A stretch of 64,000 nucleotides of DNA from Actinomycetota bacterium (lineage in GTDB: Bacteria > Actinomycetota > Actinomycetes > S36-B12 > UBA5976). Made by a program: the position numbers and the translations under genes. The notes below the pieces were generated by a model, which did no database searches, was not told where the DNA came from, and saw nothing but the letters and a program-made list of their open reading frames with translations. Where the stretch lies: contig WLPX01000002.1 of NCBI GenBank assembly GCA_009698575.1, forward strand, positions 1-64,000. Direction: 5' to 3'. This document shows, piece after piece, positions 3,141 to 59,437 of the stretch; the first letter of the stretch is position 1, and every line of letters starts with the position of its first letter.

Positions 3141-3205
3141 CACCCAGTGAAAAGGCAATGAATACGCGGTTCTGTCTGAATGGATCTAATGCCTAGTTCA
3201 CATCG

Positions 3206-3240
3206 TCAGGTTTAATTTCGCGCCTCCTGGGTAAACCTGA
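3206..3240 (+). promoter_or_regulatory. Leader hairpin before rbpA
   Basis: TCAGGTTTA (3206-3214) and TAAACCTGA (3232-3240) form a perfect 9-bp stem with a 17-nt loop. The loop contains CCTCC (3223-3227), complementary to GGAGG (3272-3276) in the rbpA ribosome site. This is a plausible translational control element; the function is inferred from complementarity only. Confidence 0.45.
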
Positions 3241-3283
3241 AACATCTGCAGAACGCAGTTAAGCATCCATGGGAGGGAAAATT

Positions 3284-3613
3284 ATGGGTGAATCAATGCG
3301 CGGCTCGCGTCTAGGAACAACGAGCTATGAAGTCGATTCTGGTGAATATGCACCCAGAGCATTAACCACGTATGTCTGTGATCAAGGACATCGAATTACC
3401 ATGCCATTCTCAGTAGAGGCTGACGAGATTCCGACCACCTGGCCCTGTGCCTGTGGAGCCACCGGCATGATGCTGGGAGCCAAACCTGAAGCTCCAGCCG
3501 AACGTAAGCACGTCAGAACGCACTGGGACATGCTCTTGGAGCGTCGGACAATCAAAGACTTAGAAGGCATACTCAAGGAACGCCTCGAAGTCATCCGCGC
3601 AAAGGCTTCTTAA
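3284..3613 (+). CDS. rbpA: RNA polymerase-binding protein RbpA
   Basis: RbpA binds the primary sigma factor and RNA polymerase and stabilises the open complex in actinobacteria. The product is 109 residues. RGSRLG near the N terminus, the core barrel, and the C-terminal RTHWDMLLERR sigma-interaction helix match the mycobacterial/Streptomyces canonical form. Candidate zinc ligands are C32, H36, C55 and C57; the last pair is C-x-C, one residue shorter than in Streptomyces RbpA, so metal binding is uncertain. The ATG at 3284 is chosen because GGGAGGG (3271-3277) lies 6 nt upstream; an in-frame ATG at 3269 overlaps that site. A second paralogue lies at 59105-59437. Confidence 0.92.
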   Translation: MGESMRGSRLGTTSYEVDSGEYAPRALTTYVCDQGHRITMPFSVEADEIPTTWPCACGATGMMLGAKPEAPAERKHVRTHWDMLLERRTIKDLEGILKERLEVIRAKAS

Positions 3614-3629
3614 TCCAATAGTTCTGGAC

Positions 3630-3670
3630 TAGCCACTGCATAGACCGCATGTAGTTCAGTAGCCACTGCA
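3630..3670 (+). repeat. Short direct repeat, 30-bp period
   Basis: TAGCCACTGCA occurs at 3630-3640 and again at 3660-3670, exactly 30 bp apart, directly after rbpA. The second copy abuts the stem at 3670-3747. Function unknown. Confidence 0.6.
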
Positions 3671-3747
3671 AAGTCCTCCAGAAAACAATCCGCTGCTCAA
3701 AAGAGTTGCTTCGCAAATTTTTCGCCTCGGAGTTTTCTGGGGACTTT
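3670..3747 (+). terminator. Terminator-like stem after rbpA
   Basis: AAAGTCC-T-CCAGAAAAC (3670-3686) pairs with GTTTTCTGGGGACTTT (3732-3747): 16 bp with one bulged T. Arm two runs into a T tract at 3745-3749, as expected for intrinsic termination on the plus strand. The 45-nt loop is unusually long and contains the left arm of the 29-bp inverted repeat, so the two structures are mutually exclusive. Confidence 0.5.
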
Positions 3748-3881
3748 TTGTTCCGTCACTTATGGTTTTGAAAGTTGCCTATTCAGATAATTACCGGCAA
3801 TGAAAACATTCCAGTTTATGAATCAGATCTCGACAGGTAGAAAAGTCATGATCGAAAAATTTGCGAAGCAACTCTTTTGAG
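3696..3881. repeat. 29-bp perfect inverted repeat, 128-bp spacer
   Basis: The left arm (3696-3724) and right arm (3853-3881) are exact reverse complements over 29 bp. Each arm also folds alone around TTGC-TTC-GCAA followed by A and five T, so each looks like a small terminator facing the gene that transcribes toward it: rbpA from the left, ppm1 from the right. No transposase or target-site duplication was seen. The region 3614-3927 has no credible gene. Alternatives are a MITE remnant, a REP-like pair, or a structured RNA. Confidence 0.8.
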
Positions 3882-3927
3882 AGCATGAGCTTTTCGTACT
3901 GTCGAATGAGACGCAACCAACACGTAC

Positions 3928-4680
3928 TTAGCTAATGTGAAGAATTCGCTTCAGGTCTGAGAGACGCTTCTTAACTCCCCATTGGGTGACCAACCACAGC
4001 GCCTCTTTAACTATGGCCCCATTCATTTTGGACTCGCCCAATTGCCGCTCTACGAATGTAATTGGCACTTCAGTGATTCTCAAGCCTGCGGTAACTGCGC
4101 GCCAAGCCATGTCGACTTGGAAGCAATAACCCTGGCTTTGCACATTTTCAACTTGCATAGCGTTGATGGCACTCATTCGATAAGCACGAAATCCTCCGGT
4201 GGCATCGTGCAATGGAATGCCTAACCAAAGTCGGGTGTAAAGGTTTCCCCCACGCGAGAGTATTTCGCGGCTCTTAGCCCAGTTCACGACGCTGCCACCA
4301 GTGATCCAGCGCGATCCCAAAACTACATCGTTGTCAGTCATGGCATCCAGGACCTTAGTTAAGTCAGCCGGCCGATGTGAGCCATCAGCATCCATCTCTA
4401 CGACTACTTCGTAGCCTTGTTGACTCGCCCATTCAAACGCCGCCAGGTATGCCGCACCCAAGCCGGCTTTAGATTCGCGATGTAACACATGGATTGCAGA
4501 ATCGTTAGTTCGTAGGCCTTCAGCCACTTCCCCAGTGCCATCTGGCGAGTTATCGTCAGCGATCAGGATGTCAATGCTGGGCTCGGCTGCGCGGACGGCT
4601 GCGACAATAATCGGCAAGCTTTCGCGCTCGTTGTAGGTGGGAATGATGACTAGAGTTTTCCCGATCTCGCGCGTTGCCAT
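3928..4680 (-). CDS. ppm1: Polyprenol monophosphomannose synthase
   Basis: A family 2 glycosyltransferase of 250 residues. It transfers mannose from GDP-mannose to polyprenyl phosphate, giving the donor for extracytoplasmic mannosylation of lipoglycans and proteins. The N-terminal VIIPTYNERE, the ADDNSPDGTG nucleotide region and the DAD metal motif (97-99) are visible. There is no C-terminal membrane domain, as in stand-alone actinobacterial enzymes. It follows lnt by 22 bp; in mycobacteria these two activities are fused in one Ppm1 protein, which supports the assignment. Confidence 0.9.
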   Translation of the reverse strand: MATREIGKTLVIIPTYNERESLPIIVAAVRAAEPSIDILIADDNSPDGTGEVAEGLRTNDSAIHVLHRESKAGLGAAYLAAFEWASQQGYEVVVEMDADGSHRPADLTKVLDAMTDNDVVLGSRWITGGSVVNWAKSREILSRGGNLYTRLWLGIPLHDATGGFRAYRMSAINAMQVENVQSQGYCFQVDMAWRAVTAGLRITEVPITFVERQLGESKMNGAIVKEALWLVTQWGVKKRLSDLKRILHIS

Positions 4681-26379: not shown

Positions 26380-27330
26380 ATGGAACTGCGGTCGTTGGGC
26401 AATAGCGGACTGCTAGTGTCGCAGTTTTCCTTAGGAACCATGACCTGGGGTCGAGATACCGATGTCCACGAGGCAAGAGATCAATTCAATTTGTACTACG
26501 AAGCTGGTGGGCGTTTTATTGATACTGCCGATGTTTATAGTGAAGGCGTATCTGAGGAAATTGTCGGGGAATTCGTTAAGGATCATCCTGACGTCATAGT
26601 TTCTTCTAAAGCGGGAAGTGTACGTAGCCATAGGCGGCGCGACACCAGTCGAGTTCATCTACTCGCTGCTCTCGACGGTTCCCTCAAGCGCCTTCGTCGT
26701 AGTTACATAGATGTCTGGCACATGCATGCCTGGGATCCGTACACACCATTAGAAGAAACCCTCGCGGCAGCTCATACTGCAATCGAATCTGGTCGCGTTC
26801 GGTATTTAGGTATCTCGAATTACACCGGCTGGCAATTGACGAGCGCAGCGCTAACTTCACAGCATCCTGTTATCAGCGCTCAAATGGAATACTCGCTACT
26901 GCAGCGCGGTATTGAGCGCGAAGTAATTCCTGCAAGTGAGGACTTGGGCGTGGGCATCATGGCTTGGTCACCACTTGGCCGCGGAGTACTAACCGGCAAG
27001 TACCGACATGGCACGCCCGCCGATTCACGAGCAGCGACCACACATTTTTCAGCTTTCATTAGTCCGTATTTAAATGATCGAAGTAGCGCGATAGTGGATG
27101 CTGTCTGCACTGCAGCTGAAGGGTTGGGGTTAACGCCAATCGATGTCGCACTTGCCTGGATCAGTGCTCGTCCGCAAGTTGCTAGCACTGTCGTAGGTGC
27201 CCGCACGGCGGCGCAGTTGCGATTAGTTATCCAGGCTTTCGACGCAACTCTCCCACCAGAAATTCACATTGCACTTGATGAAGTATCAGCCATCGAGCGG
27301 GGTTACCCAGATCATGGTTGGAATCAATGA
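26380..27330 (+). CDS. Aldo/keto reductase
   Basis: A 316-residue NADPH-dependent oxidoreductase with a TIM barrel. The catalytic tetrad can be placed at D48, Y53, K77 and H116. Subfamily features such as LGISNYTGWQL and MAWSPLGRGVLTGKY match the aryl-alcohol dehydrogenase-like/YghZ group. The physiological substrate is unknown. Its stop overlaps the start of the DUF5703 gene (ATGA). Confidence 0.9.
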   Translation: MELRSLGNSGLLVSQFSLGTMTWGRDTDVHEARDQFNLYYEAGGRFIDTADVYSEGVSEEIVGEFVKDHPDVIVSSKAGSVRSHRRRDTSRVHLLAALDGSLKRLRRSYIDVWHMHAWDPYTPLEETLAAAHTAIESGRVRYLGISNYTGWQLTSAALTSQHPVISAQMEYSLLQRGIEREVIPASEDLGVGIMAWSPLGRGVLTGKYRHGTPADSRAATTHFSAFISPYLNDRSSAIVDAVCTAAEGLGLTPIDVALAWISARPQVASTVVGARTAAQLRLVIQAFDATLPPEIHIALDEVSAIERGYPDHGWNQ

Positions 27331-27515
27331 GCGCAGTTTGGGAATACCGGGAAATGAATTTCCATCGGGACGCTAAACGAAACGATGTTAAGTCTTATTT
27401 GACGACTATGGCCGAAATTGAACGTTGGGAATTAGATCGCGTGCACATTACCCAAGACGGCCGACGCTGGGTTCGACTTCGCCGCAAGATTTACCACTTA
27501 CAGCGCACTGCCTAG
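27327..27515 (+). CDS. DUF5703 family protein
   Basis: A small basic protein of 62 residues. WEYREMNFHRDAKRNDVK and the ending WVRLRRKIYHLQRTA match the actinobacterial DUF5703 family, of unknown function. ATG 27327 overlaps the reductase stop as ATGA, so it is coupled to it. Confidence 0.8.
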   Translation: MSAVWEYREMNFHRDAKRNDVKSYLTTMAEIERWELDRVHITQDGRRWVRLRRKIYHLQRTA

Positions 27516-27521
27516 GACCAG

Positions 27522-28841
27522 CTAGAGACTGCGAACGAATCGATCCATTACGCGCGCGCCGAACTTGAGTCCTTCAGTTGGAACCCGCTCATCAACACCA
27601 TGGAACATCGCACTGAAATCCAACTCAGGTGGCAATAGCAGTGGCAAGAATCCGTAACAGGTAATCCCCAGAGTGCTAAATGCTTTAGCATCTGTGCCAC
27701 CACTGACTGTGTATGGCACTGGCGTACCGAACGGATCTTCGGCGCGAATCGCAGCAGCCATGGCATCAATGATTGGGCCTTCAAATGGAGCTTCGAGTGC
27801 AATCCCGTTTACGACATCTTCGAGTACTACGCCAGGTGGCAATAGATTCTCAATGTCTTTAATCAAGTCATCTTCGAAACCTGGTAAGAATCTGCCATCG
27901 ATCATGGCTTCGGCAGCACCAGGAATCACATTGTGCTTGTAGCCGGCATTCAACATAGTTGGATTTGCAGTATTGGATAACGTTGCACCGATAATCCGTG
28001 CAATTGGACCAAGTTGTGCCAATAGCTCTTCAGGATCTTCGGCGCTCAATTCCATACCAAGTGCATCAGATACCGCTTTGATAAAGTCGCGCACGGTTGG
28101 AGTTAGTGCCAAGTCAAATTTGTGATTGCCTACTGCAGCAACGGCTTCAGCCAATTTGGTTACGGCATTGTCGTTATTTAGAAATGAGCCGTGCCCAGCA
28201 GTTCCTTCAGCCTTCATTTTCATCCAGCGAATCCCTTTTTCAGCGGTCTGCACCAGGTATAGACGCACATCATCGCGAAGTGTTAGCGAAAATCCACCGA
28301 CTTCACCTACGGCCTGCGTGACACCTCGGTATAGCTCTGGACGATGCTCAACTAACCAACCAGAACCATGTTCACTGCCAGCTTCCTCGTCCGGCAGAAA
28401 ATCTAAAACAATCGTTCGATCCGGTTGCACTCCATTGCGAGCCCACGATCGCGCAAGCGCCAGAATCATGCCATCGCCATCTTTCATGTCGACAGCGCCA
28501 CGACCCCAGATCATGGCATCGTGTACTTCAGCTGCAAATGGATGGTAAGTCCAATCCTTTGCTTCAGCTGGAACCACGTCGAGATGTCCGTGAATTAACA
28601 GCGCTGGCTTACTCGGATCTTTACCTTCAATCCGGGCGTGCACACCTTGGCGCTTGCTACTGGTGGTTTCATACCGCTCACAATCAATACCAACTTCTTT
28701 GAGTTTGGCTTCGACATATTCGGCGGCCAGAGCTTCGCCGGGTCCGCTGCCATCGCCATAGTTAGACGTATCGATTTGAATCAGATCGCGTACTAGTTCT
28801 ACAACTTCGGAATCAACATCAGCAAGCGGTTCAATTGTCAT
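27522..28841 (-). CDS. M20 family metallopeptidase
   Basis: A zinc peptidase/deacylase of about 439 residues. H86-x-D88 (in HGHLDVVPA), D118 (in WGRGAVDMKDG) and E152/E153 (in LPDEEAGSEHG) are the expected ligands and base. The dimerisation domain is inserted around 180-310. It could be a dipeptidase or an ArgE/DapE-like enzyme. ATG 28841 is preferred to the TTG 28859 start; AAGACT lies 6 nt upstream of it. Confidence 0.88.
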   Translation of the reverse strand: MTIEPLADVDSEVVELVRDLIQIDTSNYGDGSGPGEALAAEYVEAKLKEVGIDCERYETTSSKRQGVHARIEGKDPSKPALLIHGHLDVVPAEAKDWTYHPFAAEVHDAMIWGRGAVDMKDGDGMILALARSWARNGVQPDRTIVLDFLPDEEAGSEHGSGWLVEHRPELYRGVTQAVGEVGGFSLTLRDDVRLYLVQTAEKGIRWMKMKAEGTAGHGSFLNNDNAVTKLAEAVAAVGNHKFDLALTPTVRDFIKAVSDALGMELSAEDPEELLAQLGPIARIIGATLSNTANPTMLNAGYKHNVIPGAAEAMIDGRFLPGFEDDLIKDIENLLPPGVVLEDVVNGIALEAPFEGPIIDAMAAAIRAEDPFGTPVPYTVSGGTDAKAFSTLGITCYGFLPLLLPPELDFSAMFHGVDERVPTEGLKFGARVMDRFVRSL

Positions 28842-40855: not shown

Positions 40856-42346
40856 ATGATTTTGATCCCTTCTCCGCTACCGCCGGAAAGTTTGGCCGCT
40901 GTGGCCCTTGATACTGCCACCAAACTTGGCGCATCCGTTGCGCAGTTCCGGATTGCAGCTCATGATTCCCGAGGTGTCTCCCTTCGTGATGGCGAAGTCG
41001 AAAACATCGGGGCTGACACCAGCGTGACAATGAGCGTGCGCGTTGTACATTCAGGGGCTTGGGGTTTTGCCGCTTCAACAGATCTATCTCAGGCAGGCGC
41101 TATCGACACAGCTACTCGAGCAATCAACATGGCAAAACTAAGTTCCTTAGTAACCGTTGACGAAGTTGTTTTAGCGGCCGAGCCAGTTCACGGTAAGCAA
41201 GCCTGGACATTACCAATTGAGATCGACGCATTTGCAAAGAGTGATGATGAAGTAATTGCTTTCTTGCAAAGTTGGAATACCAAGCTGGCAGATTCATCAA
41301 TTGTGAGTCACATCGAAAGCAACGTAGCGATGGGCCGAGATCGAACTTTTTACGCAGATTTGGTCGGTAATGAAATAACTCAGCAGCGCGATCGGATTTC
41401 TGCAGCACTCACTGCAATTCACGTCAGCGATAGTGGCTTTGAAGACATGCGGACTTGCGCCCCACCTGCTGGTAGAGGCTGGGAATACTTAACTGGTAGT
41501 GGCTGGGATTGGGATTCCGAAATAACCCGGCTGCCGCAATTGTTAGATGAAAAGGTTAAGTCGCCTTCTGTAACTCCGGGTGCCTGGGATTTGGTTATTG
41601 ATCCAACAAATTTGTGGCTTACGATTCACGAGTCCATCGGTCACGCTACCGAATTAGACCGAGCCTTGGGTTACGAAGCTAACTACGCAGGAACCTCATT
41701 TGCCACAATAGATAAACTCGGCAGCTTCCAATATGGTTCAGGGATCATGAATGTCACGGGCGATCGCAATGCAGAGCATGGCTTGTCAACCGTAGCTTTT
41801 GATGACGAAGGAGTTGCCAGCCAGCAGTGGGACCTCATTAAGGATGGTGTCCTAGTTGGTTATCAAACTGATCGGTCTATCGCCAGCAAGATTGGAATGC
41901 AGCGGTCAAATGGCTGTGCCTTCGCGGACTCTGCGCTGCATTCACCAATCCAACGCATGCCTAACGTTTCTTTGCAGCCTGGAACCGATAACGCCAGTAC
42001 TGCTGATCTGATTTCAGATGTGAAGCGTGGAATCTACATCGTTGGTGATAAGTCATGGTCCATAGACATGCAACGCTATAACTTCCAATTCACTGGTCAA
42101 CGATTCCACGAGATTCGCGATGGAAAGATTGTGGGCCAACTTAAGGACGTGGCTTACCAAGCTAAGACGCCTGACTTTTGGGGTGCGATGAAACGCTTGG
42201 GTGGTTCCGAGACTTATTTATTGGGTGGCGCTCTTAATTGCGGAAAAGGCCAGCCTGGTCAAGTAGCACCAGTAAGTCATGGCTGTCCAAGTGCGCTCTT
42301 CACCGGCATAAATGTGCTCAATACCCGAAACGAGAGTGCATCATGA
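40856..42346 (+). CDS. tldD: Metalloprotease TldD
   Basis: The catalytic subunit of the TldD/TldE heterodimeric protease, 496 residues. The zinc site is H258-E259-x3-H263 in TIHESIGHATE. In enterobacteria the complex degrades unfolded peptides and matures some RiPPs such as microcin B17. No RiPP-type precursor gene is visible nearby, so a housekeeping role is more likely. Its stop overlaps the tldE start as ATGA. Confidence 0.93.
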   Translation: MILIPSPLPPESLAAVALDTATKLGASVAQFRIAAHDSRGVSLRDGEVENIGADTSVTMSVRVVHSGAWGFAASTDLSQAGAIDTATRAINMAKLSSLVTVDEVVLAAEPVHGKQAWTLPIEIDAFAKSDDEVIAFLQSWNTKLADSSIVSHIESNVAMGRDRTFYADLVGNEITQQRDRISAALTAIHVSDSGFEDMRTCAPPAGRGWEYLTGSGWDWDSEITRLPQLLDEKVKSPSVTPGAWDLVIDPTNLWLTIHESIGHATELDRALGYEANYAGTSFATIDKLGSFQYGSGIMNVTGDRNAEHGLSTVAFDDEGVASQQWDLIKDGVLVGYQTDRSIASKIGMQRSNGCAFADSALHSPIQRMPNVSLQPGTDNASTADLISDVKRGIYIVGDKSWSIDMQRYNFQFTGQRFHEIRDGKIVGQLKDVAYQAKTPDFWGAMKRLGGSETYLLGGALNCGKGQPGQVAPVSHGCPSALFTGINVLNTRNESAS

Positions 42347-43722
42347 CAGCCTTAAACCTGCCCGAGGCAGTCGAGTATGCCCTGGAACAGCTAGGCACTG
42401 ATGGCGGTGTTGTGATCGGTGGCAACAGCGCAACGAATAATTTGCGTTGGGCTAACTCAGCACTTACAACTAATGGTGACTCAGTTGATCAAACACTAGC
42501 TATTTCAGCATTCGTGCCAGTATCTGGCGGAGTTGGCAACGGAATGGCAAGTGGCCAGATCAGAGATCGCCACGACATAGATCTTTTGGTAGCTGCCAGC
42601 AAGGCTGCTGCTAAGTCAGCCGGTCCGGCAGTTGACGCTATGGACCTCGTGGCTGGACCGCAACATGCTGATTTCAGTTCTGCAGCGCAAGATCTAGGCG
42701 TGGCAGAGCTAACTCATGTGAGCTCGGGTCTGGCGGAGATTCTGCAACGTAAAGATCAACAGTTCTTTGGTTATGCCGAGCAATCTCGCGACACGACCTA
42801 CGTCGGTACATCAAGTGGCACCAGAATGCGCTTTGTCGAAGACACCAGCCGGTTTGAACTGTGTGCTAAAAGTTTTGATCGCACGAGCTCTGCTTGGTCG
42901 GGCCAAGGCGGCACCACTTTAGCTAACGTAAATTTGGAAACGCATGCGAACGAAGTCTTGAGCAAACTTGAATATCAGAAAGTAGCAATTGAGATTGCGC
43001 CTGGCCGACACACTGTCGCCTTGTCTCCAAGTGCCGTAGCGGACTTAATGATTTACCTACTTTGGAGCGCTGCAGCACGGGATGCGGCCGAAGGACGTAA
43101 CGCTTTTGCAAACCCACAAGGTGGCACTCGTGTTGGTGAAAAGCTTTCACCTCGCAAACTTTCACTGATCACGGATCCGCATATTCCTGGAATTGAAACG
43201 ATTGATCATGTAATTGCACTCGGGTCCTCGGCGCTTTCAAGTGCATTTGATACTGGCTTAGCGATCCCTCGAGCAAATGTCATCACTGATGGAGTTTTAA
43301 CAGCTTTGGGCAGCAGTCGACATGCAGCAGAAACTGCAAAGCTGCCATTTACACCTTTAACTGACAACATTAGTTTCTCGGATTCAGATGGCTCTGGTTC
43401 ATTGACTGACTTAGCTAGTCGCATGACCGACGGTTTGCTGATTACTTGTTTGTGGTACATCCGCGAAGTTGATCCCCAGAACCTGTTGCTAACCGGACTC
43501 ACGCGTGATGGTGTGTACGTAGTTCGAGACGGTCAGATTGTGGGTGCCGCAAACAACTTCAGGTTCAACGAGTCCCCGATAGATATGTTGAGTCGAGTTA
43601 TTGATGCTGGCGATGCGGCTGCTTGCCTACCTCGAGAATGGGCCGATTGGTTTTCTCGAGCTCAAGTGGCTCCGTTAATGATCGACAAGTTTAATTTGTC
43701 GACTCGCTCTGATGCGGTTTAA
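42343..43722 (+). CDS. tldE: TldE/PmbA family protein
   Basis: The non-catalytic partner of TldD, 459 residues. It has the same fold but lacks the HExxxH motif, and carries GTRVGEKLSPRKLSLITDP and ITCLWYIREVDPQNLLLTGLTRDG signatures. ATG 42343 overlaps the tldD stop; the longer frame from 42238 runs into tldD coding sequence and is not used. It overlaps the convergent dodecin gene by 4 bp. Confidence 0.92.
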   Translation: MTALNLPEAVEYALEQLGTDGGVVIGGNSATNNLRWANSALTTNGDSVDQTLAISAFVPVSGGVGNGMASGQIRDRHDIDLLVAASKAAAKSAGPAVDAMDLVAGPQHADFSSAAQDLGVAELTHVSSGLAEILQRKDQQFFGYAEQSRDTTYVGTSSGTRMRFVEDTSRFELCAKSFDRTSSAWSGQGGTTLANVNLETHANEVLSKLEYQKVAIEIAPGRHTVALSPSAVADLMIYLLWSAAARDAAEGRNAFANPQGGTRVGEKLSPRKLSLITDPHIPGIETIDHVIALGSSALSSAFDTGLAIPRANVITDGVLTALGSSRHAAETAKLPFTPLTDNISFSDSDGSGSLTDLASRMTDGLLITCLWYIREVDPQNLLLTGLTRDGVYVVRDGQIVGAANNFRFNESPIDMLSRVIDAGDAAACLPREWADWFSRAQVAPLMIDKFNLSTRSDAV

Positions 43723-59104: not shown

Positions 59105-59437
59105 TTACTTGCCGCGTAACTTAGCAAGGGCCTCGTCCAAAATGCCTTTGCCATCTTTATCGTTACGACGTTCCTTTACATAAGCCAAGTGAGTCTTGTA
59201 TGGCTCAGTCTTTGCAAGTACTGGAGGATTTTCCTTATCGGTACCTGCTGGCAGGCCACACTTTGGACAATCCCACTCTTCTGGAAGTTCTGCATCATGA
59301 GCGAAACTCGGTGTGGTTTCATGACCGGATGCGCAATAAAACGGTAGGTAGATGCGAGGAGCTGCTTCGCCGCGTTCTGCCTCACCCATTGGGCCGGCTC
59401 CGACACGACTGCCGCGAATAGCACTACCACTAGCCAT
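59105..59437 (-). CDS. RbpA-family paralogue next to secG
   Basis: A 110-residue RbpA-type protein. The N-terminal GSAIRGSRVGAGPMGEAERGE and the C-terminal KTHLAYVKERRNDKDGKGILDEAL differ clearly from the copy at 3284. A full zinc set C35, H39, C57, C60 is present. This variant lies beside secG in other actinobacteria and is often annotated as RbpA too; whether it binds the same sigma factors is unknown. AGGAGT precedes the ATG. Confidence 0.88.
   Translation of the reverse strand: MASGSAIRGSRVGAGPMGEAERGEAAPRIYLPFYCASGHETTPSFAHDAELPEEWDCPKCGLPAGTDKENPPVLAKTEPYKTHLAYVKERRNDKDGKGILDEALAKLRGK

Follow-up and report, generated by a model that had tools for sequence, protein, structure and literature searches.

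The 314-bp junction between the convergent genes rbpA and ppm1 in the window (the whole stretch of DNA that was analysed, 64,000 nucleotides) contains two inverted copies of a hairpin of about 78 nt. The first-pass annotation had described this unit as a single 29-bp inverted repeat interleaved with a competing stem. The copies are best read as members of a small, previously undescribed family of hairpins at gene ends, restricted to a single genus among the genomes searched, whose function we infer from sequence.

Structure of the junction and its hairpins

The features of the junction and of the flanking genes are as follows.

3269–3613, plus strand: rbpA, RNA polymerase-binding protein (ORF; Pfam RbpA, PF13397, E 3.7e-33); its 3' end borders the junction
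3630–3676, plus strand: imperfect tandem repeat adjoining copy a (3630–3646 and 3660–3676, 88%)
3670–3750, plus strand: copy a of the hairpin element, in the sense orientation of rbpA (fold z -6.0; model R1, 106.8 bits, E 1.9e-24, copy a being among the 8 sequences used to build this model)
3670–3692, plus strand: left arm of copy a, part of the outer stem, which is locus-specific and covaries (alignment and covariation of copies)
3696–3724, plus strand: invariant 29-nt core of copy a (across the 19 copies, 6 of 551 core bases are changed)
3728–3747, plus strand: right arm of copy a (alignment and covariation of copies)
3827–3905, minus strand: copy b of the hairpin element, in the sense orientation of ppm1 and with an outer stem of its own (model R1, E 1.2e-8; fold z -4.2)
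3853–3881, minus strand: invariant 29-nt core of copy b, the exact complement of the copy a core
3928–4680, minus strand: ppm1-like glycosyltransferase family 2 gene (ORF; Pfam PF00535, E 3.1e-33), convergent partner of rbpA

The unusual length of the junction, which had been noticed previously, was confirmed: the remaining convergent junctions of the window measured -36 to +6 bp after correction of the gene calls, with two crude artefacts (27330–27522 and 42346–42923) resolved by smaller or overlapping ORFs before the comparison. A second RbpA-family gene was found in the window on the minus strand (59108–59437; PF13397, E 2.1e-37), and a weaker match to an RbpA paralogue is present in most genomes of the genus.

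The exact complementarity of 3696–3724 and 3853–3881 was confirmed, and this pair is the strongest inverted repeat with arms up to 400 bp apart in the whole window (the runner-up has 28 nt and 71%). The stem formed by 3670–3686 and 3732–3747 also exists, but it had been misread as a rival: it is the outer stem of copy a, and the corresponding outer stem of copy b had been overlooked. The core, CTCAAAAGAGTTGCTTCGCAAATTTTTCG, of about 29 nt, is located at the apex and is enclosed by an outer stem of about 20 bp that is locus-specific and differs from site to site. The predicted fold of the core includes an internal loop, an AAAGA/UUUUU helix with a G.U pair, a G.A mismatch and a UUGC-UUC-GCAA tip. 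In all 19 copies, the core lies at the same position inside the long hairpin, and a search of the host genome (G000) did not reveal any core without arms. Exact copies of TTGCTTCGCAA, which is shared with the core, occur elsewhere in this genome, namely on contig C1 and in a tandem array on contig C18 (around 2222–2291; L018/L019) with a 59-bp unit of about ACAGACCCGAGACTCACCGGCTGTGGCACCTTTTCGTTATCGGGTCATTGCTTCGCAAT, where the sequence is unrelated to the element. Reading the core as coding (frame QKSCFANFS) was not supported, as several of its few changes would, on inspection, alter residues.

Copy a is predicted to form a bulged hairpin of 31 pairs with a minimum free energy of -32.5 kcal/mol. 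Compared with shuffled sequences, the z scores of the element strands were -6.0 for copy a and -4.2 for copy b, and those of the opposite strands were -5.3 and -4.2, respectively. A single 29-bp arm, proposed earlier as a stand-alone small hairpin, folds weakly (-2.6 and -1.2 kcal/mol) and no better than shuffles. The earlier statement that the two structures cannot form at once holds, since a transcript with both copies is predicted to pair the cores with each other at equilibrium instead of forming the local hairpins. As four of the nine species with the junction element have only one full copy, core–core pairing cannot be a conserved function; a switching RNA based on the long inverted repeat is thus unsupported as a conserved feature, and a single 29-bp stem-loop was rejected as the functional unit for the same reason.

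The tandem repeat at 3630–3676 is possibly an older duplication that has lost its hairpin. On the ppm1 side of the G021 junction (L070), the flank of copy b is repeated (CTTCGGCAGTAC and then TTTTCT) without a hairpin, as if a tandem copy had lost its hairpin by deletion, which is a possible parallel.

Distribution, third site and sequence constraint

The covariance model R1 detected the family in 10 of the 23 genomes of the genus (E ≤ 0.05), which are MAGs, some of them incomplete. Under stricter filters, the family was found in no other member of the order (166 genomes), and no other genus was positive in the class (395 genomes). A strict pattern scan of the GTDB species genomes gave 11 stretches, several of them from the genomes already analysed here, all in actinobacterial or Nanopelagicales MAG records and all belonging to this genus.

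In a tree based on rbpA, ppm1 and gcvP, the nine species that carry the element at this junction (G000, G021, G006, G008, G004, G010, G013, G009 and G022) form one clade that is split from the others with 100% support. At least one intact copy was found between rbpA and ppm1 in each of the nine; the junction is 108–382 bp long with the element and 0–54 bp long in relatives without it. Five species have two full copies, copy a in the sense of rbpA and copy b in the sense of ppm1. The species G008, G004, G009 and G022 have one type-a copy in the sense of ppm1, the stem of which begins at or beside the ppm1 stop codon. On the tree, the two layouts are intermingled (two-copy G006 is sister to one-copy G008, support 80) and, therefore, copies have often been lost, gained or inverted. 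An apparent half of a second copy is retained at the junction of G009. In G008, G004 and G022, a short piece of the coding 3' end of ppm1 is mirrored on the rbpA side (0–11 of 1000 shuffles were as good), and the same test gave nothing in G009; the mirrored piece is compatible with a duplication by template switching. The G021 junction is present on two contigs (C88 and C120) with slightly different sequences, which suggests a strain mixture or a duplication.

A search of the host genome with the junction revealed a third copy (copy c) on contig C27, between a nucleoside 2-deoxyribosyltransferase gene and rpsL. This site is occupied in G000, G010 and G020, the last of which is outside the junction clade. 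Copy c is oriented antisense to the genes on either side and has stem features in common with copy b. Where the deoxyribosyltransferase gene is absent from this site, the element is absent too, and G019 has the gene without the element. An ordinary-looking terminator hairpin occupies the slot in G022, G001 and G008, which have no third copy. The deoxyribosyltransferase gene (L002, 1012–1434 in the host contig) precedes rpsL in some species only, and its 3' end in G000 is seemingly duplicated after the stop codon. A candidate half-remnant of the element beside this gene was rejected, as it resembles the duplicated gene end. Across the genus, a long conserved leader with repeated blocks (e.g., CGACACGCCGTCCGCGTGGGTCGG and CTATGCCTAGGGCTTCCCCGTCGGCGCA) was observed upstream of rpsL (L099–L110); it is possibly a ribosomal-protein leader.

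Arms that are not conserved in relatives had been named earlier as an observation that would refute the proposal, and this was not the case, as the core is conserved. Whereas the core has changed so little, the spacer between copies a and b diverges beyond alignment even among close relatives: its identity was 36–49% in 9 of 10 species pairs and 65% between G006 and G010, and G000 and G021, with RbpA proteins 97% identical, have spacers that are 47% identical. The core is asymmetric in all copies and has never been symmetrised, and no core pair has changed on both sides. The conservation of the core next to a diverging spacer therefore points to a sequence constraint beyond template switching alone.

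The outer stems behave differently from the core. Alignment of relatives, as the first-pass annotation had recommended, revealed two-sided changes with pairing kept. Among the 8 type-a sequences, both partners had changed at 8 of the 31 pairs while pairing was retained; none of 500 shuffles reached the covariation score and the number of two-sided pairs, and slid controls were far lower. The alignment of all copies gave 15 such pairs, with the note that it includes 7 reverse-strand matches, was itself fitted to the model and therefore leans towards the structure. Outer-stem cells of the forward copies comprised 335 Watson–Crick, 2 G–T, 9 A–C and 20 other combinations, some of the non-paired cells lying in poorly aligned parts of types b and c. 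The stems thus show no preference for the G–U wobble of the forward RNA. In the intrinsic terminators of Bacillus cereus, G–U is the commonest intermediate and bidirectional terminators are more constrained (PMC5381666). Template switching homogenises the arms of inverted repeats and inverts spacers (PMC8604942), and it corrects the arms of quasipalindromes (PMC7202029, PMC8604942). The near absence of G–T suggests that the palindrome is kept on both strands, by a two-way function, by DNA template switching or by both.

Putative function and alternative explanations

All 19 copies are located directly downstream of a gene, at three sites only (rbpA, ppm1 or the deoxyribosyltransferase gene before rpsL), and 16 of them are sense to the upstream gene. 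We tentatively favour the explanation that the element is a palindromic gene-end hairpin working on two strands, with a factor-bound core. A strong hairpin would form in the transcript of either strand, and it may limit read-through from both directions where gene ends lie close together, or define and protect transcript 3' ends. The core would be recognised by a putative protein. Template switching between the arms would help to keep the stems perfect, which may be why the stem changes are Watson–Crick paired with almost no G–U, and it may invert whole copies. Several observations are against this explanation: in most copies neither strand has a conserved U-tract, copy c runs antisense to both neighbours, a plain barrier needs no invariant core, and template switching alone could yield the covariation of the arms.

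The earlier idea of a paired terminator system stands in so far as paired hairpins are present at the gene ends, each copy at the 3' end of its own gene and sense to it; a stable hairpin at a gene 3' end is also what characterises an intrinsic terminator. The idea fails for the U-tract in most copies. The number of T residues after the stem was 7/8 only in the rbpA-side copies of G000 and G021 and 1–5 in the others, and it was 0–4 on the opposite strand of the other copies. Most copies are without a U-tract and are therefore not ordinary intrinsic terminators. The only terminator-like match in this region (3725–3742) was at chance level. Bidirectional intrinsic terminators, e.g., those of Bacillus cereus (PMC5381666), are similar in having a hairpin between convergent genes, two-sided stem changes and strong constraint. 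However, the element differs from them in its invariant 29-nt core, the near absence of G–U, the lack of a conserved U-tract and the antisense copy near rpsL.

Constraint on the core as sequence, with no core pair changed on both sides, would also be expected of a double-stranded DNA site, in which the dyad TTGC-TTC-GCAA is the operator of a nucleoid protein, a repressor or a roadblock and template switching at a quasipalindrome has produced the arms as a by-product. The stems nearly free of wobble states and the variable orientation relative to genes fit this explanation as well. We consider it rather doubtful, given that the core always lies at the same place in a long hairpin and is never armless in this genome, the sites are at gene ends and not at promoters, and the asymmetry of the core has never been symmetrised. 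Template-switch-corrected quasipalindromes (PMC7202029, PMC8604942) resemble the element in that the arms stay complementary through concerted changes and inversions occur; however, the centre of the element is invariant and remains asymmetric. A small RNA acting in trans or a regulatory RNA acting in cis, processed from 3' UTRs and binding a protein or ligand through the core, would agree with the strong fold, the G.U pair and G.A mismatch conserved in the core and the 16 sense copies, but it is improbable. Copy c is antisense to its neighbours, the stems have no G–U preference, and the single sigma-70-like promoter match in 3200–4200 was at chance level and away from the element. No match was found in Rfam 15 at the gathering score; a MIR821 match (E 0.38) was attributed to chance.

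Alternatively, the element could be a mobile palindrome of low copy number, similar to REP or MITE sequences, that spreads rarely and has no host function. Junctions of only 0–54 bp in species lacking it, the turnover of copy number, orientation and remnants among close species, and the dispersal of copies implied by the stem features common to copies b and c and by copy c in G020 speak for such an element. This explanation is nevertheless unlikely: the element is retained in all nine clade species, no genome has more than three copies, and the copies have only the core in common. Of the MITE/REP proposal made earlier, the small dispersed palindromic family remains. The Y1 (RAYT) transposase PF01797 was found in none of the 23 genomes of the genus, with 5 of 14 controls positive. 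This result and the lack of an Rfam match speak against mobilisation from within by a REP/RAYT or IS200-type route and against a known RNA. An origin in phages or plasmids was also rejected, as no phage match was found and the sole plasmid match was 21 bp in a Gloeothece transposase gene; two pattern matches in viral contigs were identical to each other, lacked the outer stem and were taken as chance.

MITEs are marked by terminal inverted repeats, target-site duplication and a parent transposase. Like MITEs and miniature palindromic repeats, the element is short, non-coding and located in an otherwise tight junction. However, no target-site duplication was seen when empty junctions were compared by eye, near-identical copies are absent, and no parent transposase was identified in the search, which covered Y1. 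REP/REPIN palindromes are extragenic, lie at gene 3' ends and between convergent ORFs and often form opposed pairs (PMC3733652, PMC3116915, PMC2817692), and the element resembles REP/REPIN–RAYT systems in all these respects. It differs from them in having a maximum of 3 copies (the number in G000) in place of many palindromes, a length of about 78 nt and not 20–40, a conserved apex and no RAYT-type transposase in the genus. An unpaired tetranucleotide tag (GTAG or CGTC), which REP palindromes share at one end, was not seen at the stem base of the copies inspected.

A more specific proposal, conceivable on the sequence data and itself doubtful, is that locus-specific hairpins in transcripts of either strand would present the invariant apical core to a sequence-specific factor, which would block converging polymerases or define RNA ends without a U-tract, with the stems kept perfect by DNA template switching. 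This clade of freshwater actinobacteria would then have a gene-end system of a new kind.

Gene ends often have small palindromes, and usually the stem is conserved and the copies are many. The element reverses this pattern, with three sites, site-specific stems that change on both sides and a near-invariant core, in a genome whose intergenic spaces are very short. The combination of co-changing, site-specific stems with a near-invariant core points to selection on the core. Thus, the element is a clean, testable case for the ending of convergent genes and also a test case for template switching that keeps palindromes perfect over species-level time.
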